From Apostichopus japonicus (Eukaryota > Echinodermata > Holothuroidea > Aspidochirotida > Stichopodidae): DNA of 64,000 nt. The number at the start of each line of letters is the position of its first letter. Positions within the stretch are counted from its first letter, which is position 1. Of the stretch, positions 22,607 to 46,595 are shown one piece after another. The stretch covers positions 13,814,001 through 13,878,000 of the forward strand of contig NC_092563.1 in the NCBI RefSeq assembly GCF_037975245.1, in the 5' to 3' direction. Both the position numbers and the translations under genes were made by a program. Below the pieces are notes generated by a model. That model was not told the origin of the DNA. It searched no databases and was given only the letters and a program-made list of their open reading frames with translations.

Positions 22607-23016
22607 TTTCAAAGCCTGCATTGGTGTGGTAACAATTAGGTGATGTTTGAAAGCCTGCTTTAGTGTTGTGATGTTTGAAAGCCTACATTAGTGCTGTAAT
22701 CTTAAGGTGATGTTTCAAAGCCTGCATTAGTGTTGTAATCCTAAGGTGATGTTTCAAAGCCTGCGTTAGTGTTGTAATCATAAGGTGATGTTTCAAAGCC
22801 TGCATTAGTGTTGTAATCATAAGGTGATGTTTCAAAGCCTGCATTGGTGTTGTGATGTTTGAAAGCCTGCATTAGTGTTGTAATCTTAAGGTGATGTTTC
22901 AAAGCCTGCATTGGTGTTGTACTCATAAGGTGATGTTTCAAAGCCTGCATTAGTGTTGTACTCATAAGGTGATGTTTCAAAGCCTGCATTGGTGTTGTAA
23001 TCATAAGGTGATGTTT
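22607..23016. repeat. 39-bp minisatellite, array 1
   Basis: About ten units containing GATGTTTCAAAGCCTGCATT are separated by GTGTTGTAATCATAAG variants; some units are shortened. Because 39 is a multiple of three, the minus strand shows an 87-residue open frame with a 13-residue period, but there is no start context or other coding sign. Confidence 0.93.
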
Positions 23017-26000
23017 TTATTTTATATTTCTTTTTACATTGATGATGGATGTTAATATTTATACATGCAAGAAGCTCGTTTTCAATTACATTGTTACAGT
23101 AGGTTCAGTGGAATCTCGGTTGTTTGTGTGCAGGAGTAGAATGTTGGGGGAGGGGGGGAGTGGATATAATATACTAGTTTATATCTCATTGGAAGTCCTT
23201 TGTACCTTTAATCTTCAGTCTACCCCCCCAGGGCCCCCCCTATTGATGAATCGACCATTAATCCAGTCTGTATTACATTTGCAAGCTGTTATAGTTTTAC
23301 ATACATGGGTATGTATTGTCCACAAGCGAATGCCTTACAGATGCCAACCTCAACCCGTATTGCATGACTCTCAATGTGTACAGACAAAATGTGTATTATT
23401 ACATAGAGCAGGGGTCGAAACTGATCTTGCGGTTCACAGTAAACTTTTTTGATCCAATCTGCTGACCGCATCTTAAATTGAGGGATGACAAAATGGAAAT
23501 ATGAAATAATTACACTACCTACAATAAAAAATAAAAAAACTTGGAATAGTCCTATATGTCCATCTGTTTTGTTGAGCAAATTTAAGATTCAGTAAAAATT
23601 CATCCAACTCACGTTGTCTTTTTCCTTTGTCTCGTCATCTAAGTTAAAGAAGGGGTGTGGGGTCGGGGGGGGGGGGGGCGGTGGAAGGGTTGGACTCAGT
23701 TTTGACAGCAGTTACTATGGCAATTTGCCATATAGTAGATCTTGAATGTTATTTCGGGTCATGGCACAGATGAACTTGTTGTTGAAGTTGTTGAACTTGT
23801 GAACTTCATGAATGTCATGAACTTGTGAACTTCATGAACTTGTTGTTGAAGTTGCATGTTGTACTATACACACTGGCTCTGTACTGTGAATGTTGACTGC
23901 ATATAGAATATATATTAACCGACTTTGTTCACTTGGAATATTGGAGATAACTTAGAGTGCTTTTTTTTACCCCTCCCCCCCTTGTTTTTCTTTCTGTTAT
24001 CTTACACATTGTGTGCAATAAAAATGATATACTGCATGAAATGGTCTGGGTTCTATTGATTGTACACTTTCTTTGTGGTATCATTGCATATGTTGTCAAT
24101 GAAGGGAAGAAAATACACTTGAAAGTGCAAATTCAATTCCTTTTTGAGATGTTTGTCTTTTTTTCTATTTTTCTTTTTGAAATCATTAAGTGGTTATAGT
24201 TTTCAGTTAGTCCTACCATATACTTAAATTATATAAAACTTGATATTTTGCTGACCTTCTCAACCTAAACTGCTGTCGCAGTTATACTGCAGGAAGCAAA
24301 GTTCATACTGCTTGGTTTATCATTTTGTAGCACATGACAAAGAAGCTTTTGAGAAAGTGGTGATACGGGGGATGGGGGGGGGGGCATAAAACCTGGTGGG
24401 ACTTGGGGACCATCCTAAGTGGATTTTTGCTTATGTATAGCAGGTGATTAAAGCAGGCAAGTTTAGCAGTCTTTTATTAAACATATTTAGTAAGACTTTT
24501 CATTCAACAGTTCCAGATTGCCTGGCACTCATGACTCTTTGTTTCATAAATAAAAATGTATAGTTATTGAGGAACAATAGTGTGCACAGGCTTTGAAATG
24601 TGTGTGGAGGGGGGGGGGGAGGGGGTATTCTAAAAGCTCTGTGGCTGAACCTATATGGAAGGGCCAAGAAGGGGATTGGCCCTGGAGTCGTTGAAGATTC
24701 CCATGCTGGGGGGGGGGGGTCAAAAACAAAATATTAAATGTCAAAAGGTGTATTCCAAGGCATATTTAGACTATACACTATGTCTGTAATTAGCTCTAAA
24801 CACAAGGGCTGTTCTAAAAAGGCTCTTGACATTTTGTGATAGGGGAAAGAATTATGGTTAGTTGGTGACAAAATTCAGCATCTGCTTTATGACAAAGTTT
24901 ATGATAAACATGTATAGAAAACTTACTGAGAAACTTTTATACAGTGTTAAGGTATATTTATTAAATGAGAAATATTACAGTTGGTCTGTAAGGTAGGTTA
25001 CCTTAGATCCTCTTTAATATAAAATTTGCATATTTTCAACAACAAAAAAGGAGTAAATAATGTTACCAGGAAAGATTATGTACGTACTGGACATTACATA
25101 AGGTAAGCACCATATAAGATGAAAAACAAAAGAAACTATGGGTTGCAACCCAAAGGTAGGTACCTGAACAATATGTGCTGGTGTTGTGATGTTTGAAAGC
25201 CTGCATTAGTGTTGTAATCTTAAGGTGATGTTTCAAAGCCTGCATTAGTGTTGTAATCCTAAGGTGATGTTTCAAAGCCTGCATTGGTGTTGTACTCATA
25301 AGGTGATGTTTCAAAGCCTGCATTGGTGTTGTACTCATAAGGTGATGTTTCAAAGCCTGCATTGGTGTTGTAATCATAAGGTGATGTTTTTATTTTATTT
25401 TTCTCTTTACATTGATGATGGATGTTAATATTTATACATGCAAGAAGCTCGTTTTCAATTACATTGTTACAGTAGGTTCAGTGGAATCTCGGTTGTTTTT
25501 GTGCAGGAGTAGAATGTTGGGGGGAGGGGGGGGGGGAGTGGATATAATATACTAGTTTATAAGTCATTGGAAGTCCTTTGTACCTTCAATCTTCAATCTA
25601 CCCTCCCAGCCCCCCCCCCCCCCCTATTGATGAATCGACCATTAATCCAGTCTGTATTACATTTGCAAGCTGTTATAGTTTTACATACATGGGTATGTAT
25701 CGTCCACAAGCGAATGCCTTACAGATGCCAACCTCAACCCGTATTGCACGACTCTCAATGTGTACAGACAAAATGTGTATTATTACATAGAGCAGGGGTC
25801 GAAACTGATCTTGCGGATCACAGTGAACTTTTTTGATCCAATCCGCTGGCCGCATGATTTTAAATTGAGGGATGACAAAATGGAAATATGAAATAATTAC
25901 ACTACCTACAATAAAAAATAAAAAAACTTGGAATAGTCCTATATGTCCATCTGTTTTGTTGAGCAAATTTAAGATTCAGTAAAAATTCAACCAACTCACG

Positions 26001-27533: not shown

Positions 27534-29863
27534 TCAAAAGAACGAAAAGAAAATCATATAATATTAATAAAATATTGTGTGAAAGTTCATCAAAACAAAC
27601 CATAAGGTGGGTCTTACTTGCTATGAAAAGTTTATATTCTGGAATGCCCACCCTTCTAGATTACCAATGTTATTTGTTCACTCTCTCTCTCCTACCCTGT
27701 TTCCATGGAGAACGTAAATTTTATTTATGATTCGGGAAAGGACTCATCAATAATATTTCGATTCGAAAGGTTCAAGATAACTTCTCCAAGATTTCTGCTC
27801 CTGTTTGATATGTGTAAATATAAAATATGCTATATTTCAGGCTAGATATAACAACCAGGGAGTTGTTCCATGATAACAGCTCCCGGTAACATTTGTGTTG
27901 ACAAACGATGAAATAAACTATCACAGGCTGAGATTGAAAATTATCTGTTGAAGATTAATTGAGAAATATTGAAATTGGTAATAAAAATGAAAAACCAACT
28001 ATACTCATTTTACCCAATTAAGTCAGAACTAGTTAAATAGTGTTGATAAAACAACAAAAAAGACAACCTTGACAAAAAGTCAGTAATATTATCAAATTGG
28101 AAATATGTACCATCACCACTACACAGTGACGTAGCTAAAACATGAATGGAAAGGGGAGGGAGGGGAGGGGTGGGGTGTAGGTCACCGAATGGCAACAGGG
28201 ATTTTCAAAAGGGTGGTTGCCCACCGCCAACCCCCCTCCACATAGCTAAATTTATTAAATTGAAGGGGGTTTTATATCAACTGACTTCCTGTAGTGAATT
28301 GCTTTCCTTATGATAGAAATACACTCCCCCACCCCACCCCCACCTCCTTATTTTAAAGAAAATTGAGGAAAAAAGTTTTACACTTCAGTAAATTTGAAAG
28401 CCAGAATAACTGAAAATTTTATTCCCTTTCTTTAATGCAAGCTGATAGAATTTCCATTTTGTTTTTCAATCCTTGGGAAAATATTGTTAGGCTCGTATGG
28501 GAAAAGCCAGGTATCACTTTCGAACATTTTTTAACGTCACTACATGTTGGGGCACTGTTCATATGACCACAAAAACCTAATTATTTGTGCAGATAAAAAC
28601 AATGCCGGTTTAACCCCGACTAGTACCCGATTGAACCATCTGCTTCACCCTACACTTTAATTTGCAGGAAAAAACCTGAAAAGAAAAGGTTCGTTTTTTC
28701 TTGCCTGGAAGTGCTCACAGAGACCCCTTGGCATTGAAGGGCACTTGACGTTGGGAGCCTCTAGGCACTTTCCCCATCTCACCGATGAGATAATGCAACT
28801 TGAGATATAAACCAGTGTTGCGATAGCATTAAGTATTGACAAGTTGAGGTGTCTTAAAGTTTGCTTTCGATAAATGAATATCTCTGGCAATAGTTGAATA
28901 AGGGATCATGGTATCAGGACCAATATTGTCCTTGTAAGCTGTTCAAATCCAGTCCCCCCTCCCCCCCCCCCCCCCCCCCCCGAAAAAAAGTTGACACAGC
29001 AACACATTCCTTGTTTTCGTCTGGTCTGTGCAGCAACTTATATGCCAATAAAATTGGTATTTTGTGACAGTCCAAAAGTCTTGAAGTGAATCTGTTTGGC
29101 TTTATAAACGTTAACATGCAATGGCTGCCATGTTTCAGGTTTGCATACACACATTTTGGAACACTGGGATTAAATTTGCATAGCATGAGATTCTTGATCA
29201 CATTCGACTAGTACATTGTTGTACAGTCAACTTCGATTTTCCTGTGCAGAAAATGGAACATGGAAATAATCGTTTTCAAGCGATACGTTGCATGAGCTGT
29301 TTTGGAGTTGTGTTAAAATTATCGTGCCTATTAGAGCACTGTAAAGCACAAGTATTGCATTAAGCATTGTTAGATACCATGAATAGTCCCTAACCATGCT
29401 TGAAAAGATTTTCAGAAAAGAGGGTTTTTTTTCCCTCCTCAAAAAAGAAGGCAAGAAAAGTTGCTCAGAGCAGTATTCACGGTTTTGTTGTATTTCATAT
29501 TTCATAAAACGATTGTAATTTAAATAAATGAAATAACAAAAAGGAAAGATTTCAAATTCCCGAAAAAGGAATGAACAAACAAAAGACATTTATAAAACTT
29601 GCCAAAAAAAGCATTCTTGTTGAACAATTGTCCTGATGAGTCATCGGTACAAAACTATGCTGACGAAACAGACGGAATAACAGAGGGCTTTTATGTTGAA
29701 TATATTAAACCTTCAGACCATCCTATATTGAGCTTTAGAGAGGTATCTTTGCATTTTATCACCAAATTTCACCAAATCTACACTGAGCGTTACTCAGACA
29801 AAAGATAGCAGTTGATCAAATAAACACCCTTTATTATTCAAATTAACATTGCTTAATAGCAAG

Positions 29864-29898
<35 letters not shown>

Positions 29899-31136
29899 TA
29901 ACACTAAATATTCTAGTTTAGAAAAATCTTTGTTTGGTTTAATATCTGTATTACTCATTTTATGAAAATAGCATTTCAAACATCTGATAATTTTTGTAAA
30001 CTTTGTCTTTGGGATTTGAAATGAATAGTTAGATTTAGTCAAATAAATTTTGACTAAATTGTTATGGGATTCCATGAAGTATACATCATTTACAGAAAGT
30101 AATGCCAAACAGCTGACTTTACAAGATTCAACATTAAGAAGAAGCAAACTGGATCCCAGTTAAATGAGTTGTCAATAATATACCACTGACCCATTTCTAC
30201 ACCGATCCCTCAACATTTTTCAAAGTGGACAAAATATATTTCTTTTAATTTACAAAAATTTTGAATTTTTTTATAATTTTATTGCACATAATTTTGCTCA
30301 ATATTTGTAACATCATTATTTAACCTTATAACCTTTTTGATCTTTTTTTGCTATTCAGCAATGGAAGCTTCAAATCGTGTCATCTGACAATTTAACTCTC
30401 TCCTTTTTACTTGTAAGAAGTTTCGTCTCAACTATTGGTTGCCACCAAACTTTTCTTTCTTTGATTTCAGATGCATCTATTGGCTCTTGACTAGTGTCTA
30501 AGGGCTGTTCTTAAACCTTTGAACGATGAGTAGGCTCTTTCTAGGTTTCCTGTCCGTCTTGAGATTAAAGAAATGTTGTTTACAACATGGTAGAAAGTCA
30601 TGATACCATTTGTTCATTGCAACAAACTATTTGTCACTGTTCCAAATGAAGTAACGTTGGGCCTGATGGTGTTTTGCCTTCCCCATTTTTTTGTTAGTCA
30701 TCAACTCTTTCTTAGCTAAACCTGCTACATATGTTACTGGTATCAGAGCACCAAGGAATTGTTGGCCCCTCCCCCTAAATACGAAGACTTCCTTCAACCT
30801 CTGCTGCTGATAAGTTTGATTCAGCTTTGACAATGCTTGATGCAGGATTTGAATGCGTGAAGTTTACATTATTTATGGACATAGCCCGCAACTTCATGAA
30901 GGCATCTTTGAAAAGGTATCCTCCAAGCAATTAGGAAGGGGTGGAGGGGGGTGGATGGTGGAGCTATATTTCTACATATCCACCGACTGCACCACTGTAG
31001 TAAGAGCACGAAACACGACGGAGACAGGCGAAATATAAGAAAGGTGTGTAGATTCAAGGCCGTCTGAAATTTAGGCACATGAAAGACAAAATAAGGTATT
31101 GAAAAGGAAAAACACAAAAAAGTTGATAATACTGTT
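27534..31136. other. Gene-free spacer
   Basis: No exon, RNA gene or complete element is recognised. It holds poly-G/poly-C tracts (for example 28953-28981), a (TA)n run at 29867-29898 and isolated open frames such as 29599-29808 without known domains or splice context. Confidence 0.5.
29867..29898. repeat. (TA)n microsatellite
   Basis: TA alternation of about 31 bases in the spacer between the segmental duplication and VPS9D1. Confidence 0.9.
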
Positions 31137-31437
31137 ATAAATGTGTAAAAGTAAATTGACCTGATATTTTGATCATAGCAGGATCTTCTTCAGAGGTTAA
31201 ATGACAAGTAACACTAACAGAAGGGACAAAAACATGCAGAGAATACAGACAGGTTAATGAGCATGGTGAACACAAAGAGATATATGTAAGGGGAAGAGTA
31301 GACAAGGAATGGAGAGAAGAAAGAAAGAAACCAACAGGGGAAGAGGAGAGGTAGGAGATAAACAGTGGAGGAACAATAAGAGGATTAAGGGAAGGGGGTA
31401 GGGAATAACTGGAGAAGGACAACGGCAGAAAGGTGTG
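31137..31437 (-). mobile_element. Hammerhead-bearing repeat, copy C
   Basis: The minus strand reads a pyrimidine-rich block, then CCTGTCTGTATTCTCTGCAT, then a hammerhead-like motif (31160-31198), then a TTTACACA tail. It closely matches the plus-strand copies at 31441-31605 and 41490-41833. The ribozyme core is mutated. It lies about 575 bases past the VPS9D1 stop in the same orientation, so it could fall in a long 3' UTR. Confidence 0.75.
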
Positions 31438-31440
31438 AAG

Positions 31441-31605
31441 AAAAACCTGTCTGTATTCTGTGCATGTTTTTGTCCCTTCTGTTACTGTTACTTGTCATTT
31501 GGCCTCTGAAGAAGATCCTGCTAGGATCGAAACGTCAGGCAACTTAACTTACTTTTACACATTCTCTTACACAGGCTCTCTAGTGGATAAAGCAGTTTGC
31601 TTACA
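31441..31605 (+). mobile_element. Hammerhead-bearing repeat, copy A (5'-truncated)
   Basis: It starts within the CCTGTCTGTATTCTGTGCAT segment, carries the best hammerhead motif (31501-31542), then the tail ACACAGGCTCTCTAGTGGAT. It faces away from copy C, making an inverted pair. Hammerheads of this type are known from Penelope-like elements and retrozymes; no reverse transcriptase is present here. Confidence 0.75.
31501..31542 (+). ncRNA. Type-I hammerhead ribozyme motif (copy A)
   Basis: The conserved core elements are present in order: CTGAAGA (31506-31512), stem II GATCC/GGATC (31514-31518 with 31524-31528, loop TGCTA), GAA (31529-31531), then ACGT (31532-31535) as a 2-bp palindromic stem III and C31536 as the cleavage base. 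Stem I is GCCT (31502-31505) with AGGC (31537-31540), extendable past a bulged G. One unpaired A (31513) between the core A9 and stem II is unusual. The loop-free ACGU stem III is typical of Penelope-like-element hammerheads, which act as dimers. Activity is not tested. Confidence 0.7.
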
Positions 31606-31612
31606 GTATGAT

Positions 31613-31618
31613 TTTATT
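31613..31618 (-). terminator. Candidate VPS9D1 polyadenylation signal
   Basis: TTTATT on the plus strand reads AATAAA on the VPS9D1 strand, 155 bases past the stop. It lies at the edge of the hammerhead repeat copy A. Other AATAAA words lie further downstream. Confidence 0.4.
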
Positions 31619-31672
31619 TTAACTTTTACAAATGAAAGTATAGCCCAAGGTTTTCTATGTTTGCTATTAAAT

Positions 31673-31810
31673 CCTTCCATTTACTCACTGAGAAGGTGTA
31701 ATCTTATTCTTCTGACAGTTTGAATACATAGCTCAGTGCAGTATTCCATTAACTCACTGAGGAGGTGTAATCTTATTCTTCTGACAGTTTGAATACATAG
31801 CTCAGTGCAG
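31673..31810. repeat. 69-bp tandem duplication of the VPS9D1 stop-codon region
   Basis: 31673-31741 and 31742-31810 are near-identical direct copies. The right-hand copy contains the last 38 coding bases of VPS9D1, including the stop at 31773-31775. The left copy therefore lies in the 3' UTR. Confidence 0.92.
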
Positions 31811-34800
31811 TTTGTATGGTTGTCAGACAGTAGCCTTCTTTCCCAAACAGGTATCTGTGAAAGGAATCAAAGATTAAAACAAAATGGATGCTGTTGAAAG
31901 GTTTCCTGCAAGTAATATCTGCAGTAATGTGTACTTCATAACACAGGCTTTGTTAGTGGATCAGGGAGGGGTAAGGGGGAGGGCGATATAACAGCTGGAA
32001 GTTTAGACAAACCAAAAAACCTAAAGCATTTCTTGCACATTTCAATGGATATTTCGTTTTGAAGTGTTACCAACAATTTGAGCCATTGAAATAGCTTCTC
32101 ATCACCAATTGGTCTATAGAATAGGTCAAGTAAAATTTGAAAAAAAGTAACAAGTTCTAATTTTAACATTGACCAATATTTCCATACCTCAGTATCTCAA
32201 ACTATGTTCACTTCAGTGGAGTATTAATGACATAATGATACAACTTTTTCTGTGTGCTAAATGCCATTTTTGTGGTTCCTCAACAGATGGCTAGAGTGAA
32301 TTTTTACAGTGCTATTGTAGTTTTTTATAAATTTTATTATTTCATCTATAAGCTGCTTCATGATTAGTTTTAATACATAAGACAAATGACGGTCCACAGC
32401 TAATCTGAATTATGCCTCATGTTCCAAATATTCTTCAATGCTTTTGGAAAAGCAACTTTCTCAGACAAAAAAAAAAGTCTTCTACAGTGAGCATATTCAT
32501 TCCAATTTGAGAATGTTTAACTAAATATGAAATAATTCTCCTGCAGCCTTACCGTATGGATAGCGTGAAAATGACACAAAAATTTCTTACCCTTCTTGTA
32601 TAAACATCTCCATGGCATTCACTTCAGAAACTATTGTGGGCAGACCAGACTTGAGAAGAACGAAACTCAGAATCGGTAGTAGGTCGTCGCAACCACTGGC
32701 GAAGAAAAAGATACAGTACTGTACATAAAAGCATCAGAGATCGACTGAGGGAAAATATCAAGATTCTAAACAAGAAAGGGCACCTTTCATTTTGGAAAAT
32801 ATTTCCTTCTGTTGTGTCAACAAAATGGCTCTCTCAGAAATGCTCCTCTATTCCCCTAACCCCCCTCCTCCCCCATCCCCTAAACCCCTTCCCCCTCCCC
32901 ATCACCTAAAACCTCCCTTCCCTTCATCTACTCCTACCCTGGTCCCCGTCCTCTGTTGGCAGTTTGTAATAACTTAATGGCCAAAACACATGGCATTTTA
33001 CTTACACGGTCACATGTTTACTTTGGCCATCTGTCTCATAGTGTTGGTTAACGCACTGGATTACCCCACTGGAAACACGCACTGAGAAAATAAAGTGCAC
33101 AGTATGGATAAGTATTCTAGCTACCTTAGGGGGAATATTACACATTCTTTTGGCAGTGCCTGGGAAGCATGATAAACAAGAAATAATATCCAATAAGCAA
33201 GAGTGTACAACACTATAAATATTATTATCTCAGAGTTAGAAGGCCTGACCTTTCAACCCTAGCAGCATCTTCATAGAGGCTCTGATATATTTACCTACAC
33301 AGGCTTTTGCAGTAGACCAGGAGTTTGCTGACACTTTCATCTGCATTTTCAGAATTGTATTATTAGCTATAGCTCAAGTATATTATTACCTATAGCTCAA
33401 GTTTAGTATTAGCTATAGCTCAAGTATAGTTAGAGCTATAGCTCAAGTTTAGTATATTATAGCTCAAGTTTAGTATTAACTTATGCTCAAGTTTAGTATA
33501 TTATAGCTCAAGTTTAGTATTAACTTATGCTCAAGTTTAGTATAGCTATAGCTCAAGTTTAGTATTAACTATAGTTCAAGCTTAGTATTAGATATAGCAC
33601 AAGTATATTATTAGCTATAACTCAAGTATATTATTAGCTATAGCTATAGCTCAAGTATATTATTACCTATAGCTCAAGTTTAGTATTAGCTATAGCTCAA
33701 GTATAGTTATAGCTATAGCTCAAGTTTAGTATTAATTATAGTTCAAGTTTAGTATTAACTTATGCTCAAGTTTAGTATATTATAGCTCAAGTTTTGTATT
33801 AACTTATGCTCAAGTTTAGTATAGCTATAGCTCAAGTTTAGTATTAACTATAGTTCAAGTTTAGTATTAGATATAGCTCAAGTATATTATTAGCTATAAC
33901 TCAAGTATATTATTAGCTATAGCTCAAGTATATTATTAGCTATAGCTCAAGTATATTATTAGCTATAGCTCAAGTATATTATTAGCTATAGCTCAAGTAT
34001 AGTATTAGCTATAACTCAAGTATATTATTAGCTATAGCTCAAGTATTTATTAGCTATAGCTCAAGTATATCATTAGTTATAATTCAAGTATAATATTAGC
34101 TATAGCTCAAGTATAGTATTAACTATAGCTCAAGTATATTATTAGCTATAGCTCAAGTTTATTATTAGCTATAACTCAGTATATTATTAGCTATAGCTCA
34201 AGTATATTATTAGCTATAACTCAGTATATTATTAGCTATAGCACAAGTATGTTATTCGCTATAGCTCAGATTTAATATTAGCTATAGCTCAAGTATAGTA
34301 TTAGCTATAGCTCAAGTATAGTATTAGCTATTGCTCAAGTATAGTATAAGATATAGCTCAGGTTTAATATTAGCTATAGCTCAAGTATAGTATTAGCTAT
34401 AGCTCAAGTACAGTATAAGATATAGCTCAGGTTTAATATTAGCTATAGCTCAAGTATATTAGCTATAGCTCAAGTACAGTATAAGATATAGCTCAGGTTT
34501 AATATTAGCTATAGCTCAAGTATATTATTAGCTATAACTCAAGTATATTATTAGCTATAACTCAAGTATAGTATTAGCAATAACTCAGTATATTATTAGC
34601 TTTAACTCAAGTATATTATTAGCTATAGCTCAAGTATAGTATTAGCTATAACTCAAGTATAGTATTAGCAATAACTCAGTATATTATTAGCTTTAACTCA
34701 GTATATTATTAGCTATAGCTCAAGTTTAGTATTAACTTATGCTCAAGTTTAGTATAGCTATAGTTCAAGCTTAGTATTAGATATAGCACAAGTATATTAT

Positions 34801-37800
34801 TAGCTATAACTCAAGTATATTATTAGCTATAGCTCAAGTATATTATTAGCTATAGCTCAAGTTTAGTAATTAGATATAGCTCAAGTATATTATTAGCTAT
34901 AACTCAAGTATATTATTAGCTATAGCTCAAGTATAGTATCAGCTCGAGTAAAAAACACAACATCAAAAACATGAGGCCATGGGAAAAGATATTCAGAAAG
35001 AATGATTGTTTTCTCCTTGGAAACCTGCCAAAATAGGACAAAATGCAATCAAAAGTCAAATTATTCAGCTATTCAGAAAGAATGATTTTTCACGCTGTGG
35101 TTTTTCAAATGAACTATTTTTGGAAGAAACAACAAAGGAAACCAAAGAATATTAGACAAAGGACGACGGGTTTTGTTAAACTTGAACAAAAGAGCAAAAA
35201 AACGCTGATTATTGAAAAGAAACGATAGGCTTGATAGGGGATGTAAATGAATTAGGGGGAAAAACACCAATCACATGGAATGTCCCTTTGTTCCTTTGTT
35301 GTTTTATTGCAAGTTATTGAATATTCTAAAGGGTCTTACGGTAGCTATAGCAGGAATCCAGTCAATAACATATATAAAACCAAAATAGTTTTATTGAAAT
35401 TTGCCTTTGATGTTTTGATGATTCATATCCCAGTAAAGATGTGACCTTGTATTGGTCATTTTTTCCCAAAAAATCTACATTTTTAATTAGATGTACTTTA
35501 TATATATCAAAACCAAGATGTGTCAATGACTGAGTCACATGTCTCACTCATATTCAGTTACGTGAGGAGATAAATAGTCTCAGATGTTGTATACTTAAAA
35601 CAAAAACAAGGAAAAAAACATTACTTATCAGAGAAAAAAATCCATTCTAAAGTCTTTGTCTGATGCAGTTCATATATTGAGCCAGTGTGTCCTTATTCGA
35701 AACTGAAATTGTATATATAAAAATAGTGGGCTCGAATTTAATGAACGAAAATGAACGAATAGGGTTTGTAGAAACACAATCAGTCGGTTTTATATCAAAC
35801 GTGGTAGCTTGATCCCAAAGAGAAAACATCACAAGGATGGATCATGACCACATCATTTACCTAATATCGAATAGTAAGATCCACCAAAGAGTAGATTAAT
35901 ATAATTAATGTCGAACTGAAATGACCCTCTTATATATTCACAGTGCTGTGTGCACCAACCACATTGACAAGTCAGAGACTACCAGATTTGATTTTGTCAT
36001 CCTTTCCCCAGCCCCCTCCTCTGCCACCAATGCCCCCCTCCTCCCCTTCCTTCCCCCTACAGTATGGCTGGGATACACCTCTCTAGTAGGCATCACCACC
36101 AATATGAACTGTCAAGATATTGTTTGCTTTGTCCAGCCACATATGTACACTATTAATATGACTTCTTTAAATGGTGTACCTTCTACCGCAGTACCCAAAC
36201 ATCATTGCCTCATATGTCCTTTCTAAAATATCATTTGAAACTCGCTTCATATATCAAACTCAATCTGTTAAAATGAATGCCAAAGACTTTGATCGTTCCA
36301 AATGAAGAGTAAACGTATAGTTACCCAAGCATTCCAATTTATCGGCAGGGCAGTCCAACTTTGCCAGTTCCAGTACTTCCTCCACGATGGGGTAGTACGG
36401 GTAGGGCTCAGTCGACGGTGTCGAGCTACCTTCCGACTTGAGACAAAATTTCTCACTGATGCCGATATGTTCTGGCAGGGCATGGAGGTATCTCGTCATG
36501 GCAGTCGCTACTTGGACTTCCTTGTCATTATTTATCCTCCTGAGGAGAAAACACAGAATAAATAAACAAAATCAATTCTTGGCTCTTCATTGGACAGTTT
36601 TATGTAATAGTTATTTAATGAAATAATGTTAATATTTACAAATGCAGGAAAAAACTGTTTTAAGCGGTTCCCACGAAATCACTCGAAATGACGCAACAAC
36701 AATAAAATGTTATATAACTGCATACTGATCTATTGCTGGTGTAAGGGAGACAAATTTCATTAAATGGTGGTCGGACAAACTATGATGTTTTGCACAAATG
36801 GTGGTCAGACTATGGTGGTTTGAACTAGTGGTTATTACAAATTAACTTGCTACATCAGCTAATCTATAACGTTAATACTAAAACTATAAACAAGTGGTTT
36901 TTACAAAGGCAAATATTTGTAGCTTTTGACAGAAGTCGCACCTTATGTTACCATTGACTGAGGTTCTATGATTAAGGTTTTGAACACCAACAGATTGATA
37001 TGTAAATAGAAAAACCTTGTAAGTAGAATCAAAATATCTATTTCAAATAACTTGTGCCGGTTAAATTTTAAACTGGCTATTGGGTTCCTTTCAACTTTAC
37101 CCACCTGCTGCATGATCAAAGACCAAAAATTTGACTGTATTCCTCACTCTAGAAAATTTGTACAAATTTGCTTTTTTTTTGCAATACTTTGTGACAACTT
37201 ATCATCTGCTAGGTGAATGCTTCATTTCATAACAATGTGTGGACTAAAGTGAACACATTTTAGTGTGAACACACACTAAAGTGAACACACTAAAGTGAAC
37301 ACACTAAAGTGAACACACTAAAGTGAACACACTAAAGTGAACAGTTAGAGGTACCTTTTACCTTTACAAGACCAGTTTAAAACCACAAGATTATTGCAAA
37401 TTCAACACAAACTGCAGCTTTAACACAGCTTCTGTCTTTGGTCAGCCGCTTGTTAACAATTTTACCAACCAAAATGACTATGACTAAAAAAAAGTGAATG
37501 TAAAATAGTTCAACTAGGACAATTACTCAGGATATTTTTTTTTCACAAATAAAATAGAAAATGAATGAGTAATATCATGAATTTGATTTGACAAACCGTG
37601 TCCCATTAATTATACACTTTTCCAAACTTTTAATAACTGCATTTTTGTAAATTAAGTGATAAAATTTATATAAATATTTTCCCAGCCCTATTTTTTTTTT
37701 TGGGGGGGGGGTTTGTTTCTTTGAAATGAACCTGGATACGTGAAACAAATATAGATTTACTGTGATAGGCTTGTAGTGTTAAATTTTATGAAACATTTGA

Positions 37801-40800
37801 AACAACAACTTTGACAAGCTTCCTTGAAAGAGAGAACTTTATATTGTTAAAGAATGCAGTTTCAAATACCTGAAGAAACTAAACAGTGATGGCCAAACAC
37901 CAGGAAAGAAATGACACTCAATGATAGTCAGACATTGTTCCTTAGCAACCGCACTAGCCAGCTCTTCATATACTGTCACCAATAGACTCACAAGCTTCTC
38001 TGTCAACGAAAAAAAAGAACGGAAAAATTCTGAAAAAAAGAGGGCAGAGTTAAATATTGGCTGGAACAGCATTCCAAGACCTGACTTCAAAGTCGCAGCT
38101 TAGTTGGTACCTAGCTCACTGTATCTGCACACGCAAAAGGAAATCTGACAAAAATCTTTACACATTATTTCTTTTTATTTACTAATATTCTTCAAATGAC
38201 GTCATTGAATATTTTCAATAGCATCTACCTGGGGCATCATTTTAATCCTGTGTTGTTTCCATAGCTTACCGAGAACAATGTCTGTAAATATTTCAATCAA
38301 GAGAATGTTGCTTTATATGAATGTTTATGAAAACGTGAACCCACCGACCATCTGTTTGATCTCTTTGGAAATATTCTCCATATGTCTCTCCATGGCTTCC
38401 GCTTGTAACCTCTTGACCTTCTCTTCTTCGGACTCTTCTCGTTCAGATTTCTCGTTCGCACTTCCACCCACTTCCTCTGGCAGCGTCACATTATCGTCTG
38501 TTCCATCGACATCATTACTGCTGTCGGTGCTCACTCTTAATGTTGCTATTTCAGTACCTGAAATCTCTCCTAGACTAGTTGTTGCGTTAGCTTCTAAATC
38601 GTTTTCTTCTCCCTCTCCATCTGATGAATATTCATCATGACATGAAGATTCATCTAGATTCTGATTGGCTGGATCCAGAGTCATATCAGCAGCAGTCTTT
38701 AAATCACTCCTAACTTCCTCGACAACACCCTTAAACTTCTCGACGACACTTGCTGGGGTCTCCTCCTCCTCTTCTTCTTCCATCGACATTCCTTCTTCTC
38801 TTTGAACTTTGACCTCCCTCTTTTCACCTTGCATATGATAAGCCAGTCCCATGTCATCGGAACTTTCGTCAATCAACTCTTCAATTAATTCCTCAAACAT
38901 TTCGTCCCCCTCCCATGAAACAATGTCTTGGCCGACATCTCGTAGCATTTCCTCGTATCTCTCGGAGCTTCTAAATGTCAGGAGTCTTGCCATGAAATCA
39001 TCGCTAAATATAGGTCCTTTCGGTTTAGTTTCCTCAAAGCTATCTGCATTGATAACCTTCCTCCCTGTGTTGAAGAAAAGTTTCATTTGTTTTTATTCAC
39101 TTAAATATTTTAAAATTAAAAATATAAATTTTCAGACAATAAATTGCATTTCCAGCTTTACAACCTTTATCACTTCAGAACTTAGTCTCAAGTTGTCGAT
39201 CTTAGATCAGTTCTAACATTTTGTCACCTTCAACGAGTGTTAATTAGCATAAACTTATTAAAATAATTGTCCCAGACAAACCTTTTTACTCATCACACAC
39301 CACAAACAAAAGCACTGAATTAAAGTAATTAAAGTATTAAATTAAAGTAAATTAAAGTAACTAACGTAATTAAAGTTCCATATCTTTACTATAATTTAAG
39401 AAGGAGATTCCACTTTCCAACAGATGAACCGATTGAAATAAGTGCAGTTACATACAAACACACTTGAACACCAAGAACGATTGTTGATATGTCGCATTGA
39501 TACAAGGAATTGGGAGTGTTAGCTGAGAGTGTTAGCTCAGTGGTTAACGCCGGTGCCTTTCAATCATTAATGAATGTCGTCCAGTTACAGAGTTGTTGAC
39601 AATTGACAATTCATAGTCATGGATGTTAAATATGAATCTTAGAGACTGACTTTGGTCAGCCTGCGGCTTTGATAAGCTAATGATAGCTTCATCGCGAGTT
39701 CCTGCTTGCAGGAGGATCTAAAATACAATTGTCAGAAAACTTGAGAACAGCCAGAATCCCACTTTCAAAACAAAGAGAAACACTTTGCCTCTAGACCTAC
39801 AAAACATTACAAATAGCAGTCCAATCTAATTTTTTTGGCATATTTAGCAGCCTACCAGAAAGTTCTAAGATGGTAACATCCTGTAATGGAACTCTCACAT
39901 CATCGTTGCTGTAGTCCATTGTAAGCGGTTCGAGTTTTCCACAGATGACTCCCTGGTAATGCTGGAGCAGCTGAGAGAACGGATGAGTTTGATCCTTGAC
40001 GATGTCTTTAATCAGATCCTGGATGGCGTTGGTGTCTTTAGGCGATGCCCGCAACCTCTCGTGTTGCTCCTGAATCCATAGCTTTGTGTGTGATAGAATA
40101 ATCAATGATATTGCAAAATACACATAAAGAGATGGTGTTAACTCATGATGCAGATCGAAAATTAAATCAATCAAAGAATCAAACTTTATGAAACGAAAGG
40201 TTGTGTTTACATTATACTGTAATAAAATAATGTTACTAGGAGCCTAATGACTATGATATGAAACTTGCACACAATCCATAGCTTTGTGGGTTTAAATAGA
40301 ACAAATCAATGCTATTGCAAAATACACATAAAGAGATGGTATTACCTCAAGATGCAGTTCGAATCAATCAAACTTTATTAAAAGAAAGGCCTTGGTGATC
40401 ATCGTCCTTAAGCAAGACTGATTTATAACGGAGGAAATTGTTTTGGAAAAAATGTCAATTCCTCAAATCGTGTTTACATTATACCGTCATAAAATAATGT
40501 TACTAGGAGCCTAATGACTATGATATGAAACTTGCACACAATTATGACTTTAAAAATTTACAGCAAAAATATTCTTCTTCTTTTTTTAAAATTTAGAACA
40601 GCCTCCACCGGGATTCGAACCCGGGCCTCCCGCTTTATACGCGGACACCCTAACAAACTAGGCTATGGACGCTGATTGTATGTCCAGAGGTTCAAAACCG
40701 GTAAGGATGGTCGCAATTCCACTGTAAGCTTTTGTCACCTGTATCAAACAATACTAGTTCTGTGTTTGGTGACATACTTGCCTTACTCTAGAGATCAAAC

Positions 40801-43800
40801 ACGATTCTAACCAACTCGAAGTAATTTGTGATTCCTAAAGCCGGATCTCGAAAGGGATACTTTAAACAGGCTTTTGTTCATGAAATGGAGGTAAACGACA
40901 AAGGCAAATGAATATTTGCCATAGATCTTTAAATCTTGAAACTTACATTGTGGTTCTCGTATTCAAGTATTTGAACATAGGCTTTGTGCAGTTCCACGTC
41001 GTCTCTAGACAGACCGCCGCTCTTTGAAAACTTCTCTGCTGCAAGTCTCTCCAGCTGTTCATGTCTTTCCCTGATTTTTCTTGCCAACTGAGCAAATAAT
41101 TTCGCGTAAAGAACAAAATTAGAAGTGAACCAGCACAATCATTTCTGGGATTATAGTATAAGTAATAGTTTTATATAAAATTATAAATTATTTTTAATTT
41201 GAGAGTCTTCAGGAGACAGATAGCCAAGAGACTACTCACCTGTTTTTCTCTCTCCCTGGCTATAGCCATGTTCTCCATGAGCCTCCTTTGAAAGGTCAAA
41301 TTCTGAGGACAAAAATAAAATGTAACTGAAGACAAGCCTCATTTGTAACACCTCTCACTCTGCTAATATCTTGAGTGTTACAGTAAATATAGAGTAACTT
41401 TTAGTTGCATTAATGTCATAACATTAATAATGTTTCCCCCCCCCCCATCACTCCTCTTCTCATAGCTCTCTTCCACCCATTTTTCTCCACACCTTTCTGT
41501 CTTTGTCCTTCTCCAGTTTATTCCCTACCCCCTTCCCTTAATCCTCTCTTTGTCCCTCCACTGTTTACCTCCTACCTCTCCTCTTCCCCTGCTGGTTTCA
41601 TTCTTTCTTCTCTCCATCCCTTGTCTACTAATCCCCTTACATCTATCTCTTAGTGTTCACCATGCTCATTAACCTGTCTGTATTCTGTGAGTGTGTTTGT
41701 CCTTTCTGTTACTGTTACTTGTCATTTAGCCTTTGAAGAAGATCCTGCTAGGATCGAAACGTAAGGCCAACTTACTTTTACACATTCTCTTACACAGGCT
41801 CTCTAGTGGATAAGCAGTTTGCTAACAGTTTTATGTTATTTTTATTTTAACATTAATAATATTATTTATAATAGTTCAAAGAGCAGGAGAGTACTATCTG
41901 ACTGAATTCTAAAGAAGTCAATGCAGCTGGATCTGACATTTTGTTTGAGTTTTAGAATAATTTAGTTTCCTTTATCGTCTAAACATATTTACAATCGGAT
42001 TGAATCTGACAATCTAATTTTTATGTACTTACAACTGCAGATTGATTCTTAGATCCTGCTATCCTCTTCAACCTAGCAGAATATGCTACCATCAAGACTC
42101 TGTTTTCTCTGTAGGCTTTTTCCATCGGGCTTAACTGGTCATAGCTAGAAAATCAAGAGCGATACAGAAATTGTTATAAAGATTACAAATGTAAGACACA
42201 AACTGCTTGAGAGCTGCAGGGCACAATATGTAGACAGCATTAGAAATCCCTACACCATTGAAAATTCCAAGGATACAAAGAAATAAGAGACATGATAAAG
42301 TAATAAAAATATTTTGTAATCTGTGAGTAATCATATTTCATAATTTAACAAACTTGCTAATTAGTGAAATAAACCAGCAAAAGGAGTTTGTACATAATTT
42401 TTTGGGGGCATATGTTTCCAAGAGTAATGAATGTTGAAATGAAAATAAATATCTCTGTTGAGGAAGAGTGTGAACTACCAGTTCCTTTAAAGCTACTATT
42501 GCTAAAGTTGACACTGATTAGGTAATAAATACATTTGAGAGAAACTAGTGATTTATAAACACTCCTTATATTATTTTTTGCAGTAGTTGTTGGGTCTCCC
42601 GTTCTTGCACCAGTGATAATCATTTAAACATTTCTATTCCTAAGAATATCTGTAATAACTCATGGTACATTCCTCAGTTCTTATTTTTCCTGACTGCCTT
42701 TGAGAACGCACAATCACTGTTCATATGGATGCAATTATCATTGCATTTCTATATCAAGGAAACACAAACAGATTTAATGTTCCTTCACACACGAGTCAAA
42801 AGCCTAATTGTGACATTATCGAGCCACATGTGCTTCAAGTTGTTATGTTTTTTTCATTTATTACATTAAATTATTTTTCTGTAATGGGGTTGGCTATTGC
42901 AAAGGCTAAATCTAAACTAGTTATGACCTGTATGTAGCATTGGTCTTCACTGTCAGCAATGTCAACAATCTAACTTGAACATGGGAAAAGATAAACAAAG
43001 AGAAAGTAAAAACTTTTCCATCACATATTTACAACGTGACTCCCCTTCCCCGCACAATTTTTAAATTACTGAAGGTTATCTCCCAAACAGAGCAAGATTT
43101 CTCTTTGCTAGTTGGAGGGAGTGGTTCCTTCACAAATATCTCAGTCACAGAAGCTAAAGATTATGGTCATGTTTGTGTCTCCTTTTAAAGGCATTGAAGA
43201 CTCGCCCCAAACAGTGTTAAAAAGTTAACTTTCCGTTGCTTGCAAGTGAAGTTTTTCTCTTGTCGCTACAAAATGCAGACAGTAATGAAATATGATACCT
43301 TGTTATCTTTAGCTGGACCTGAGATGTCCATCGCTGTATCTTTTGTACACTGTGCTATTGGGTATTGACCGCAGCTGTATATACTGACTGTACACTAATG
43401 TCTATTTACCCACGGTAGCTAGCTGTGTATATATATATTCTGGGATCGATGGTGGTGTCTAACACTTCTGTTACACTTCATTAGAAACTAGGTCAGATTA
43501 CCGGCATTAGACGTTTCTTTTTGCACGAGTCTTCACACCCTTTAAAGGTACCTTAAATTGTGTGCTTGGTGGAGTGTGTCTGCCTGTGATGGAGCATGCA
43601 AATAATTATCCTCCCTATTAAACTGGAATGGAGTCTCACAAAGGGTGCAGACAAACGTTGCTTCAATCGAAATTGGGGACCGAATTGCTGATTTTATACT
43701 TTCGTAAAATATAACCTCATGCCTAAAAAACTCATCTTAATTTCACCTTAAAAAAAAGACAGTACTATCATCATACCTTCTTTTCCTTGACACAACAGTA

Positions 43801-46595
43801 GAATGTGTCGGAGATGGTGATAAGCCCACTCTAGGAGCTGGTTGATGCTGGTTAGATCTTTTCCCAGGGCTAATAGTGGCCGAATGCGCACTGTCTCTTC
43901 TTTGAGAGGGTTGAGGAGGACTAGGGGTATCTGGCAGGTGAGTGGTGGCAGGTGAAGGCTGAGGGGAGGTTACAGTGTTGGCGGTTGGCTGATGCTGATG
44001 GACATAGCGAGTGGCTGAAAAGTGATACAAATTGATCAAAGTCAAAAACGATCAGCAGTATAATATGACACTGTTTCAACGAGTTGTGTCATTTGACGTT
44101 CATAGCTATTAACTTTCCTGACTCTAGCCAAACCAAGGATTTCATTCACTGTATACAGTATATATCTCTCTAGTGGGAAAAATGTGAACAACCTGGAGGC
44201 AAGACTCAGCACAACACTGTCCTCTAACTCAGTTACTTTTATCAGAGGGAAAATGTTTCCAAACATTATGATGTCATCAATGCTTTATAAAGTCTGTTGT
44301 TTTTGCATTTCATCACCTAATTACCCACTATCTCAACATTCCCTTTCAATATAGGTTTACCTGATATCACTATGACATACTTTTCCCAAATTGAAAATTG
44401 ACAATTTTTCTTACTTTTTGAAAGAATTTTTTTATAAACAAGTGATATTGCCAAGCCCAAAATTAAAACAGTATAGGGCTTTACTCACAAAACAGCAAAC
44501 ATATCTCTGTTCTCCCAAAAAAACATTTATTTGATGGCAACTTTTCCTTCCTCATTTTGGAACTGTACTCTGACTGAAGCAAATGTCATGAACCAAGAGG
44601 ATATGCTAAAACGATTATATAAAGCAGAAGGCTCTGAAGATGATATACTTCCCAGCCAGTTCATTTCATTAAAGTTGGCTAAAACAATGAAATGAAAGTT
44701 AGTTATCGGAAACCATTTGCAACATGTCTGGTAGATTTGTTGCCTGTAATTCCAAAGATGACAATTTCTTGAAATAAGATAAAAGATATTCCAGATGGAC
44801 ATAAGAAACTTGAACTCTCTATTATAGAACAAAAAAAATTAAAATATTAAAATAGTGACACTTGAAGATTTGCTAATTGTCATCACACTCCTAATATCTT
44901 CATGTCATTCCAGAGAAGGGAGAGTATTTATATGGATATAACTTGTTACTTTGGAATCGCTTGTATTAATCCTGAGCCATACATTTTTTCTGTGGTGTTT
45001 CTGAATGCAGTTTAGTGACAATAGGGACACCAAGCGTGAGGACAATAGTTTTTCTTTTCAGAAGCTAACTTGATACCCAGTAGTAACTAACCATAAGAGA
45101 TACGGTTGTGATGTAATTCCTTCATTCTTAGCAGGTCACTAGCAGCTTTTAAATGATGCTTCACTTTCAGATATTGTCACTAGTTTTAATAAATAATGTA
45201 CGACATAAAAAACTCTCAAGACCAAACATAATTTACTGAACTTGCATAAATGTGAGAAGCCAGCTAATGTGTAAGGTAACAGTTCTGAAGCATCAGACCT
45301 GTATTTATGTTTTAAGTCTTATATTTTATACCGGAAGTTGCTCTTACCTAGTGAACATTGCAGCTCCACTAAACGTTCAGTACATTTCTGAACCAAATTC
45401 ATCATTTTCTGAGATTCTCCAGATATGAGATTACTGGCCTGGTCTCCAGCAGATATTGCTTTAAAAGAATGATAGAATATTTTCATTTTCAAGGGGGAAA
45501 AAAACTTATTGGTGTCACAAAACAGCTTGACATTCTTGTTCAAAATTCAAAACATCTCAATGCAACAATACCTGATCTATGTTTGCCATGAATACATGAG
45601 TATGTTAAATGAAAATTTTTCTGTGGTATTGATATAATAAACAGAAACCTGGGATGGTGATTTTTTATTTAAAAACTAAACTTATAAAATAAGATTTCTT
45701 AATTATTTAATCAATTTGGTGATCTTTTTATTAATAATGATAATTACTGCCAATTAATGTACTTGCTTGAACAATTCCATGTGAAATAAATGGTTATGCA
45801 AAGTTAGTTCTGTTTCTCTATTGACTTCAGTGATTTAAGAAAAGAAAAGAAAAATTAAAGTAATCTACTTAATTTCACAATTTTAATAATTCTTGCCCAT
45901 TATAACTTACTTTTCATCTTGGCTTCCTCACATAATGATCCTGATATAAACTGAAGACAGCTGAGATATTCAATATACGCTTCCTAGAATAAATAAAATA
46001 TCAATGTTTACAATGAGTAGATTGTATTTCCATGGAAAAATCTTTAATATATGTGAAAAGGCAATTTGCACAAGTTTTTCTTAATATAAAAATCAACTTC
46101 ATATTTATGGTACAGTACTATTACTGTAAGGTATCATATAGAGCTATTTGGAGACTCTACCTGACCTGAAGATTCTACCCAGTATGTTAAAGGTTATCAG
46201 TATATCCACCCCTTCCAAGAAAAGAAATTGTGTGGTAAAAATTCTTAGAATTGATCAAAAGTACTTTCTCAGATGTTGACCTTCCAAATAAATATTTTTA
46301 AATGGCTCAATTGTTCCCTAAAATGTCTAGATGAGGGGAAATGCCTTAAGGCTGGTTAGAAAACAGATGTTAGTGATCATATTTTGACATCAAATATGGG
46401 AAATGTTACTGATAACCTTTACCTAGTACTGTCACATCGTGCTATCATTTTGCTAGAATATCCTACAGTTCTTTGATCTTACAATGATAGTTACACAATC
46501 ATTACCTGGTTTTGGCCCTTTTCATCAAGCTTCATAGCCTTGACAAAACATTTCATGGCCCCTTTAAGATTCAGTGTTTGAGCTGCAGATGCCAT
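31773..46595 (-). CDS. VPS9D1: VPS9 domain-containing protein 1
   Basis: Fourteen coding exons, in transcript order: 46506-46595, 45911-45983, 45348-45458, 43777-44014, 42033-42144, 41240-41302, 40947-41087, 39856-40081, 38345-39064, 37870-37999, 36325-36539, 33006-33081, 32591-32695 and 31773-31854. They encode 793 residues (human about 630). Residues 1-95 form an MIT-like helical region ([30 protein letters not shown]). A Pro/Ser-rich linker follows, then a coiled coil with YVQILEYE, then a large acidic 240-residue segment from the 720-base exon. Residues about 600-793 are the VPS9 domain ([48 protein letters not shown]). VPS9 domains activate Rab5-family GTPases on endosomes; for this protein that is inferred from family. 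All junctions are GT-AG and phase-consistent. The start was chosen by similarity to the human N-terminus; no in-frame stop was noticed just upstream, so a longer N-terminus is possible. Confidence 0.92.
33241..33286 (-). ncRNA. Decayed hammerhead-like motif (copy D)
   Basis: The minus strand has GCCT...AGGC arms, a TGCTA loop and GAAAGGTC where copy A has GAAACGTC. The CTGAAGA core is disrupted to CTATGAAGA and stem II is partly unpaired. The flank TACACAGGCTTTT resembles the tail of copies A and B. It lies in a VPS9D1 intron next to the 23-bp minisatellite. Confidence 0.4.
33361..34950. repeat. ~1.6-kb minisatellite, 23-bp unit
   Basis: About 70 copies of TTAGCTATAGCTCAAGTATA-type units (period mostly 23 bp, with 17-31-bp variants) fill half of one VPS9D1 intron. 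The units contain the palindrome AGCTATAGCT. Higher-order repeats are visible, such as the block with TTAACTTATGCTCAAGTTTA near 33480, 33530, 33760 and 34730. Confidence 0.96.
37243..37343. repeat. 14-bp minisatellite AACACACTAAAGTG
   Basis: About five exact tandem units plus diverged units on the left, in the VPS9D1 intron between the exons at 36325-36539 and 37870-37999. Confidence 0.93.
40073..40545. repeat. Local tandem duplication over a VPS9D1 splice acceptor
   Basis: AATCCATAGCTTTGTG begins at 40073 and again exactly 200 bases on, at 40273. Similarity continues through GCAAAATACACATAAAGAGA to GAGCCTAATGACTATGATAT. The second copy has an ~80-base insertion near 40386-40465. The first copy includes the acceptor of exon 39856-40081; the second carries a decoy of that acceptor in the intron. 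Confidence 0.88.
40601..40672 (-). tRNA. tRNA-like gene, anticodon read as AUA (Tyr?)
   Basis: The 72-base minus-strand sequence folds as a cloverleaf. The acceptor is GCGTCCA with TGGAGGC (one G-G mismatch). An A-box-like TAGCCTAGTTTGTTAGG is present. The anticodon arm is TCCGC/GCGGG with loop GTATAAA, and the T arm is a perfect CCGGG-TTCGAAT-CCCGG containing a consensus B box. The loop places ATA at the anticodon, a UAU (Tyr) reader; GTA would be usual. The D stem is weak. It could be a working tRNA, a pseudogene or a tRNA-derived SINE head. It lies in a VPS9D1 intron, same strand. Confidence 0.6.
41490..41833 (+). mobile_element. Hammerhead-bearing repeat, copy B (longest)
   Basis: A pyrimidine-rich block (41490-41650) is followed by ACCTGTCTGTATTCTGTGAG, the hammerhead-like motif (41729-41768) and the ACACAGGCTCTCTAGTGGAT tail. 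At ~345 bp it matches copy C over its left part and copy A over its right. It lies antisense inside the VPS9D1 intron between exons 41240-41302 and 42033-42144. Confidence 0.75.
41729..41768 (+). ncRNA. Hammerhead ribozyme motif with mutated core (copy B)
   Basis: Stem I (GCCT/AGGC), stem II (GATCC/GGATC, loop TGCTA) and GAAACGT are intact. The core CTGAAGA has become TTGAAGA (41733), and the cleavage base is A (41763), not C. Loss of core C3 is expected to abolish cleavage. Confidence 0.6.
43184..43546. mobile_element. MITE with TTAA ends, copy 1
   Basis: It starts TTTAAAGGCATTGAAGAC and ends GTCTTCACACCCTTTAAA, an imperfect terminal inverted repeat flanked by TTAA. It is a direct, same-orientation copy of the repeat at 48511-48866, sharing ACCTGAGATGTCCATCGCTG and GGGATCGATGGTGGTGTCTA. 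It has no coding capacity and lies in a VPS9D1 intron. Confidence 0.75.

Follow-up and report, generated by a model that had tools for sequence, protein, structure and literature searches.

The best explanation of the hammerhead-type motif in this Apostichopus japonicus DNA is that it is a minimal type-I hammerhead without a stem III, placed near the 3' end of a non-coding repeat of about 417 bp that is of Penelope-like element (PLE) type and equates to a PLE pLTR, and we put the probability of this reading at roughly 0.8. The window (the whole stretch of DNA that was analysed, 64 kb in length) holds four copies of the repeat, here called A, B, C, and D, and the motif lies in copy B. We regard the element as ordinary in kind, its type of motif being already known from Penelope, and the solo insertion that forms copy C as the more interesting part.

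An initial annotation had claimed a hammerhead at 31501-31542, and direct reading of the region found the letters, their order, and their spacing to be as described. Stem II had been given as 5 bp long; the stem is indeed present, but it can be 6 bp. The parts of the copy B motif are as follows, each read from the letters:

31502..31540, + strand, the minimal type-I hammerhead motif of copy B, from sequence, pattern statistics, and fold
31502-31505 (GCCT) with 31537-31540 (AGGC), + strand, stem I
31506-31512, + strand, core CTGAAGA
31513, + strand, extra A following core A9
31514-31519 (GATCCT) with 31523-31528 (AGGATC), + strand, stem II, 6 bp with a GCT triloop
31529-31531, + strand, GAA
31532-31535, + strand, palindromic ACGT (loop-free stem III)
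31536, + strand, C17, with the predicted cut directly 3' of it

Copy B thus combines stems I and II with a loop-free palindromic stem III. The segment 31506-31536 on the forward strand is the sole match in the 64 kb to a hammerhead core of this kind, and the pattern CTGANGA..GAAACGTC was matched once in the window vs. not at all in 100 shuffles. When the stems were required together with the core on both strands (a 4-bp stem I, a stem II of at least 4 bp, and a 2+2 stem III), one real match was obtained, as opposed to none in 60 windows simulated with a first-order Markov model. At -11.5 kcal/mol, the minimum-energy fold of 31502-31540 forms both stem I and stem II. Because this fold has a z of -1.50 and 14 of 200 shuffles are equally stable, folding energy alone is weak evidence, and the pattern statistics are the stronger support for the motif. 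The claim of a hammerhead-type motif was therefore upheld by its core, stems, and spacing, which neither the shuffles nor the simulated windows reproduced. A dimer fold generated with RNAcofold, which does not represent crossing pairs, gave a structure other than the double hammerhead and was set aside.

The covariance-model check that the initial annotation had proposed went against the motif. At the gathering threshold, Rfam returned no hammerhead model match in the whole window, and with E up to 10 the region around the motif yielded no hammerhead family, only other families (including mir-3689 and CRISPR-DR7) that all fell under their cut-offs. As such, the motif was not assigned to the canonical type-I hammerhead of Rfam. 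Since it has no stem III, this null result is neither decisive nor a refutation.

Repeat detection found copies A and B as an inverted repeat that is 89% complementary over 107 nt, and BLAST within the window widened this inverted repeat to a family of four copies:

about 31443-31140, - strand, copy A, from BLAST, 90.2% to copy C over 307 columns, inverted relative to copy B
31444 to about 31620, + strand, copy B, 5'-truncated but tailed at its 3' end, facing copy A head to head
41432-41848, + strand, copy C, a 417-bp solo unit made up of a pyrimidine-rich 5' part, a hammerhead, and a tail
33276-33247 (BLAST piece 33280-33234), - strand, copy D, a decayed hammerhead relative, 78-79% over 48-49 columns
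33280..33409, + strand, tail-like sequence akin to the copy C 3' end, adjoining copy D in the opposite orientation

In the BLAST alignments, copy B has 87.5% identity to copy C over 200 columns and 88.3% to copy A over 120; its 3' end was placed by eye where the match between B and C stops, and a lenient BLAST alignment reaches 31641. Copy C matches copy A from 41480 on. Its first 48 nt, unmatched in A, were counted as part of the unit because of the flanking repeat described below. Copy C has a GC content of 0.43, and its 5' part is 82% pyrimidine. An AC-rich tail is kept in copies B and C, while copy A ends earlier and has no recognisable tail. The tail-like sequence beside copy D is 63% alike over 130 columns (E 4e-05 in BLAST with lenient scoring), and its end is overlapped by a 23-bp tandem repeat of 10.6 copies at 33361-33598. 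Short stretches resembling the 3' tail (ACACAGGCT...) with no ribozyme on the same strand also occur at 31941-31965, 33297-33321, and about 37418-37464, the weaker ones scoring near shuffled queries. For tail-only matches at about 37.4 and 18.2 kb, the score was 19 vs. at most 18 for three shuffled queries, and we make no claim for them. A covariance model built from the four copies recovers those four, which is circular for its own source sequences, and its next match is unconvincing at E 0.91. The surveyed portions of the literature on hammerheads and PLEs contained no description of this repeat.

Copy B is the only one of the four to retain the whole core, i.e., CUGANGA ... GAA together with the A-U pair of stem III and H17; the other three have damaged cores. 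The ribozyme of copy D has a broken core with, by alignment, a T at position 7, and those of A and C are as follows:

31163..31193, - strand, decayed hammerhead of copy A, with G12 changed to A, ACGT changed to ATAT, and one stem II pair broken
41733..41763, + strand, copy C hammerhead, stems intact, carrying T in place of C3 and A in place of C17

The change from ACGT to ATAT in copy A alters both CpG sites seen in copy B. The extra A after A9, which had been flagged as an atypical oddity of copy B, proved not to be one: it aligns in all four copies and is therefore a family trait. Folds of the single copies gave z values of -1.50, -0.71, -2.02, and +1.39 against shuffles. Covariation across the four copies amounts to one both-sided change, an A-U pair in stem I of copy A where B and C have G-C, and 248 of 500 shuffles matched it.

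These data bear on the reading that the likeness to a hammerhead arose by chance, or is a relic likeness, without any ribozyme history. The damaged cores in three of four copies, the covariation no higher than in shuffles, the lack of an Rfam hammerhead match, and single copies whose folds beat shuffles by a modest margin at best are what such a reading would expect, but it would also have to account for conserved positions and both stems occurring in the right spacing exactly once in 64 kb and in none of the 100 shuffles or 60 simulated windows. A comparison with collections of viral and prokaryote contigs points the same way: among the at least 169 core-pattern matches listed there, four had a stem II of 5 bp or longer, and none combined a stem II of 4 bp or longer with a stem I of 3 bp or longer. 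We consider a chance likeness very improbable. The pattern matches in those collections (32 and 19 viral and at least 118 prokaryote) were dropped as candidate relatives, their number being, by our estimate, about what chance would produce.

Copy C is flanked by an exact 13-nt AT-rich direct repeat:

41419..41431, + strand, likely target-site duplication of copy C, 5' half, 13 nt
41848..41860, + strand, likely target-site duplication of copy C, 3' half, 13 nt, its first base also being the last of the unit

As controls, we took pairs of stretches from the same window at the spacing of copy C. With tandem repeats left unmasked, 1.2% of 5000 random pairs reach 13 nt; with tandem repeats masked, none of 5000 pairs reaches 12 or 13, nor does any of the 360 in an AT-matched subset. 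The masking filter is strict towards copy C, since 15 of the 41 bases of its 3' flank count as tandem repeat and are masked. A looser filter that admits the flanks of C, applied stepwise, left four of 10,556 positions with at least 12 nt, all four of them at copy C. In the unfiltered stepwise scan, 161 of 12,700 positions reach 13, six of them at copy C; among the matches listed, the others form two groups near 15.4-15.9 kb and near 33.4-33.8 kb, the second of which starts within a tandem array. Judged by eye, the match between B and C runs four bases into the 13-nt repeat and then diverges, while the lenient BLAST alignment of the two continues to 41865. Because of the 13-nt repeat and this divergence, copy C is best read as a single insertion of the 417-bp unit with a likely target-site duplication. 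The proposal of a small ribozyme-bearing and apparently non-autonomous retroelement is supported by this solo copy. A tRNA gene (40600-40672, - strand, 53 bits with Rfam) is located about 0.8 kb from copy C.

The finding of copy C also led us to drop the reading of the A/B locus as a foldback or MITE DNA transposon, in which A and B would be its terminal inverted repeats with a spacer between them and any resemblance to a hammerhead would be incidental. The arms of about 116-120 nt, set about 188 nt apart according to BLAST and repeat detection, do look like such an element. However, copy C stands alone, flanked by a direct repeat of its own and lacking an inverted arm, so terminal inverted repeats are not found at the unit ends in each copy, and the apparent spacer is the 5' part of the unit, as seen from A matching C over 307 columns. 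We take a DNA transposon to be extremely improbable. No significant target-site duplication was found for the A/B pair, the best candidate being a 10-mer with one mismatch; this 10-mer was estimated to be at chance level and the eight bases beyond the arms agree, by eye, only in part, so neither was used.

With A and B head to head, the ribozyme copies at this locus are inverted rather than in tandem, and excision of a unit-length RNA is therefore not expected here. We calculated pairing probabilities for seven stretches with a thermodynamic model, in which kinetics and protein play no part. In transcripts without arm A, the predicted pairing of stem II is 0.6-1.0 and that of stem I is 0.1-0.7, whereas for the two transcripts that include A as well as B, the predicted value for the ribozyme stems is 0.0 and the hairpin is predicted to prevail. 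A circular RNA from this locus is unlikely, since pairing with the inverted partner is predicted to sequester the ribozyme. The circle of 170-350 nt suggested in the initial annotation thus fared poorly, given the inverted arrangement, the single intact ribozyme, and a predicted stem pairing of 0. Copy B, although its sequence is intact, is probably a relic, being bound in the hairpin, as modelled, in any transcript over both arms.

The same arrangement weighs on the reading of the repeat as a metazoan retrozyme, i.e., a non-autonomous element arranged in tandem, with canonical type-I hammerheads making two cuts in its transcripts and circularisation following. The unit resembles the metazoan non-LTR retrozymes treated in the available part of PMC7229834 in being short and non-coding with a type-I hammerhead, its GC content is below 50% (0.43 for copy C), and metazoan retrozymes have been proposed, in that same part, to be moved by PLEs as well. 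Unlike the copies here, those retrozymes are tandem, carry canonical ribozymes, and give circular RNAs. Neither BLAST within the window nor repeat detection over 30000-33500 and 31000-33600 found tandem direct copies of the unit, which is solo or inverted throughout; moreover, the predicted 4-bp stem I does not have the canonical further stem and loop, and stem III is loop-free. A retrozyme is, in our view, quite improbable.

Searches with Pfam to E 1 in all six frames of 29200-33900 and 39800-44500 detected no RT or GIY-YIG domain, in keeping with the claim that the ribozyme-bearing repeat shows no protein: no retroelement domain was found in these two 4.7-kb stretches. With no such ORF beside the copies, the repeat is not an autonomous PLE here. 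The sole Pfam matches in the two stretches are to the VPS9 domain (E 5.2e-05 and 0.041, 24 and 14.7 bits, both under the Pfam cut-off of 27). The VPS9-domain frame, part of an intron-split gene that the initial annotation named VPS9D1, stops at 31775-31773 on the reverse strand, and the motif does lie downstream of it as claimed, about 237 nt past the stop and on the opposite strand. RNA made from the VPS9 gene would contain copy B as its opposite strand and, if extending that far, the decayed ribozyme of copy A. A 69-bp tandem duplication with 97% likeness (31675-31811) spans the C-terminal codons and stop of the VPS9-domain frame, its second copy falling past that stop. Elsewhere, domains were found in four of nine open frames scanned (2Fe-2S thioredoxin, MT-A70, CUB, and HYR), and two long forward-strand open frames at 23012-23452 and 25513-25836, about 2.4 kb apart, have very similar translations and represent either a local duplication or another repeat.

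For a non-coding PLE-type repeat of this kind, we infer the PLE machinery, the cleavage, and the role of that cleavage along the following lines. The repeat would be copied by an enzyme that an autonomous PLE encodes at another place in the genome. This enzyme would nick AT-rich DNA and begin reverse transcription from either of two positions 3' of the ribozyme, and the two start sites would account for copies with and without the tail. The 5' end may be truncated during copying, and an inverted second copy may sometimes be added. Cleavage by the hammerhead would fall between C31536 and A31537 and would probably require either the pairing of two motifs through ACGT or the help of protein, and this cutting would trim the RNA of the element.

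More tentatively, the repeat may be a self-contained mini-PLE, a 417-bp, pLTR-only, solo element moved in trans in the manner of a SINE. Its mobility signal would then be the hammerhead together with the roughly 108 nt that follow, and the extra A behind A9 would be a fixed feature of its core; we hold this to be possible though not the likelier case. PLE hammerheads are widespread, and the part of PMC7761336 at hand describes their role as unknown. In a short, pLTR-only element that has a clean target-site duplication, the cis signals on which PLE machinery depends would stand isolated, and what the ribozyme does could be tested on a 0.4-kb template instead of a whole PLE.

Cervera and De la Pena in 2014 and Lunse, Weinberg and Breaker in 2017 reportedly described small hammerhead variants of PLEs and proposed that they cleave as dimers. 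As far as the sources seen in part describe them, these small variants share with copy B a type-I layout, a palindromic stem III, and a location in non-coding or pLTR sequence. In the sections drawn on here, PLE hammerheads are minimal type-I motifs without helix III that occur in pLTRs or dispersed in non-coding DNA (PMC6155905; PMC7761336), they are described as acting as dimers (among PMC6155905, PMC7761336, PMC7229834, and PMC6466107), and the double-hammerhead form needs tandem copies (PMC6466107). BLAST gave no such tandem arrangement, the copies in the window being inverted or solo.

The bdelloid Penelope, as presented in excerpts of PMC3846280, offers a close parallel to copies A and B in its head-to-head inverted pLTR and an optional 31-bp tail on one inverted pLTR, and solo pLTRs exist there too. 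Target-site duplications of 8, 9, and 10 bp accompany three of the copies described, and other copies have none; several of the solo pLTRs, according to the same excerpts, have no associated duplication, whereas copy C has a likely one of 13 nt. The present repeat shows the pLTR architecture of a head-to-head inverted copy and an optional tail, with a target-site duplication for copy C only.

For the anole PLE PAc, a Poseidon element, the consulted part of PMC11167929 reports that the hammerhead has stems I and II, that the ORF opens at stem II, and that reverse transcription initiates 111-118 bp into this ORF, with AT-rich DNA being cut. Stems I and II, the AT-rich target, and the optional tail are all as in the repeat described here, where the unit ends about 108 nt past the start of stem II vs. 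the 111-118 of PAc. PAc differs, per the same source, in belonging to a coding element, whereas the copies here have no RT or endonuclease domain alongside, and the present tail, taken as the distance that separates the end of A from that of C, measures about 62 nt vs. the 30-40 bp quoted for PLEs. That part of the paper also reports that hammerhead mutants insert unaffected in vitro, that the RNA is cut only with protein present, and that no reads start or end at the cut site, so a trimming role is unproven even in the anole PLE. The suggestion of kinship with Penelope-like elements gains its support from anatomy: the ribozyme near the 3' end, the optional tail, and the head-to-head A and B fit the PLEs of PMC3846280, PMC11167929, and PMC7761336 as far as the parts seen describe them.
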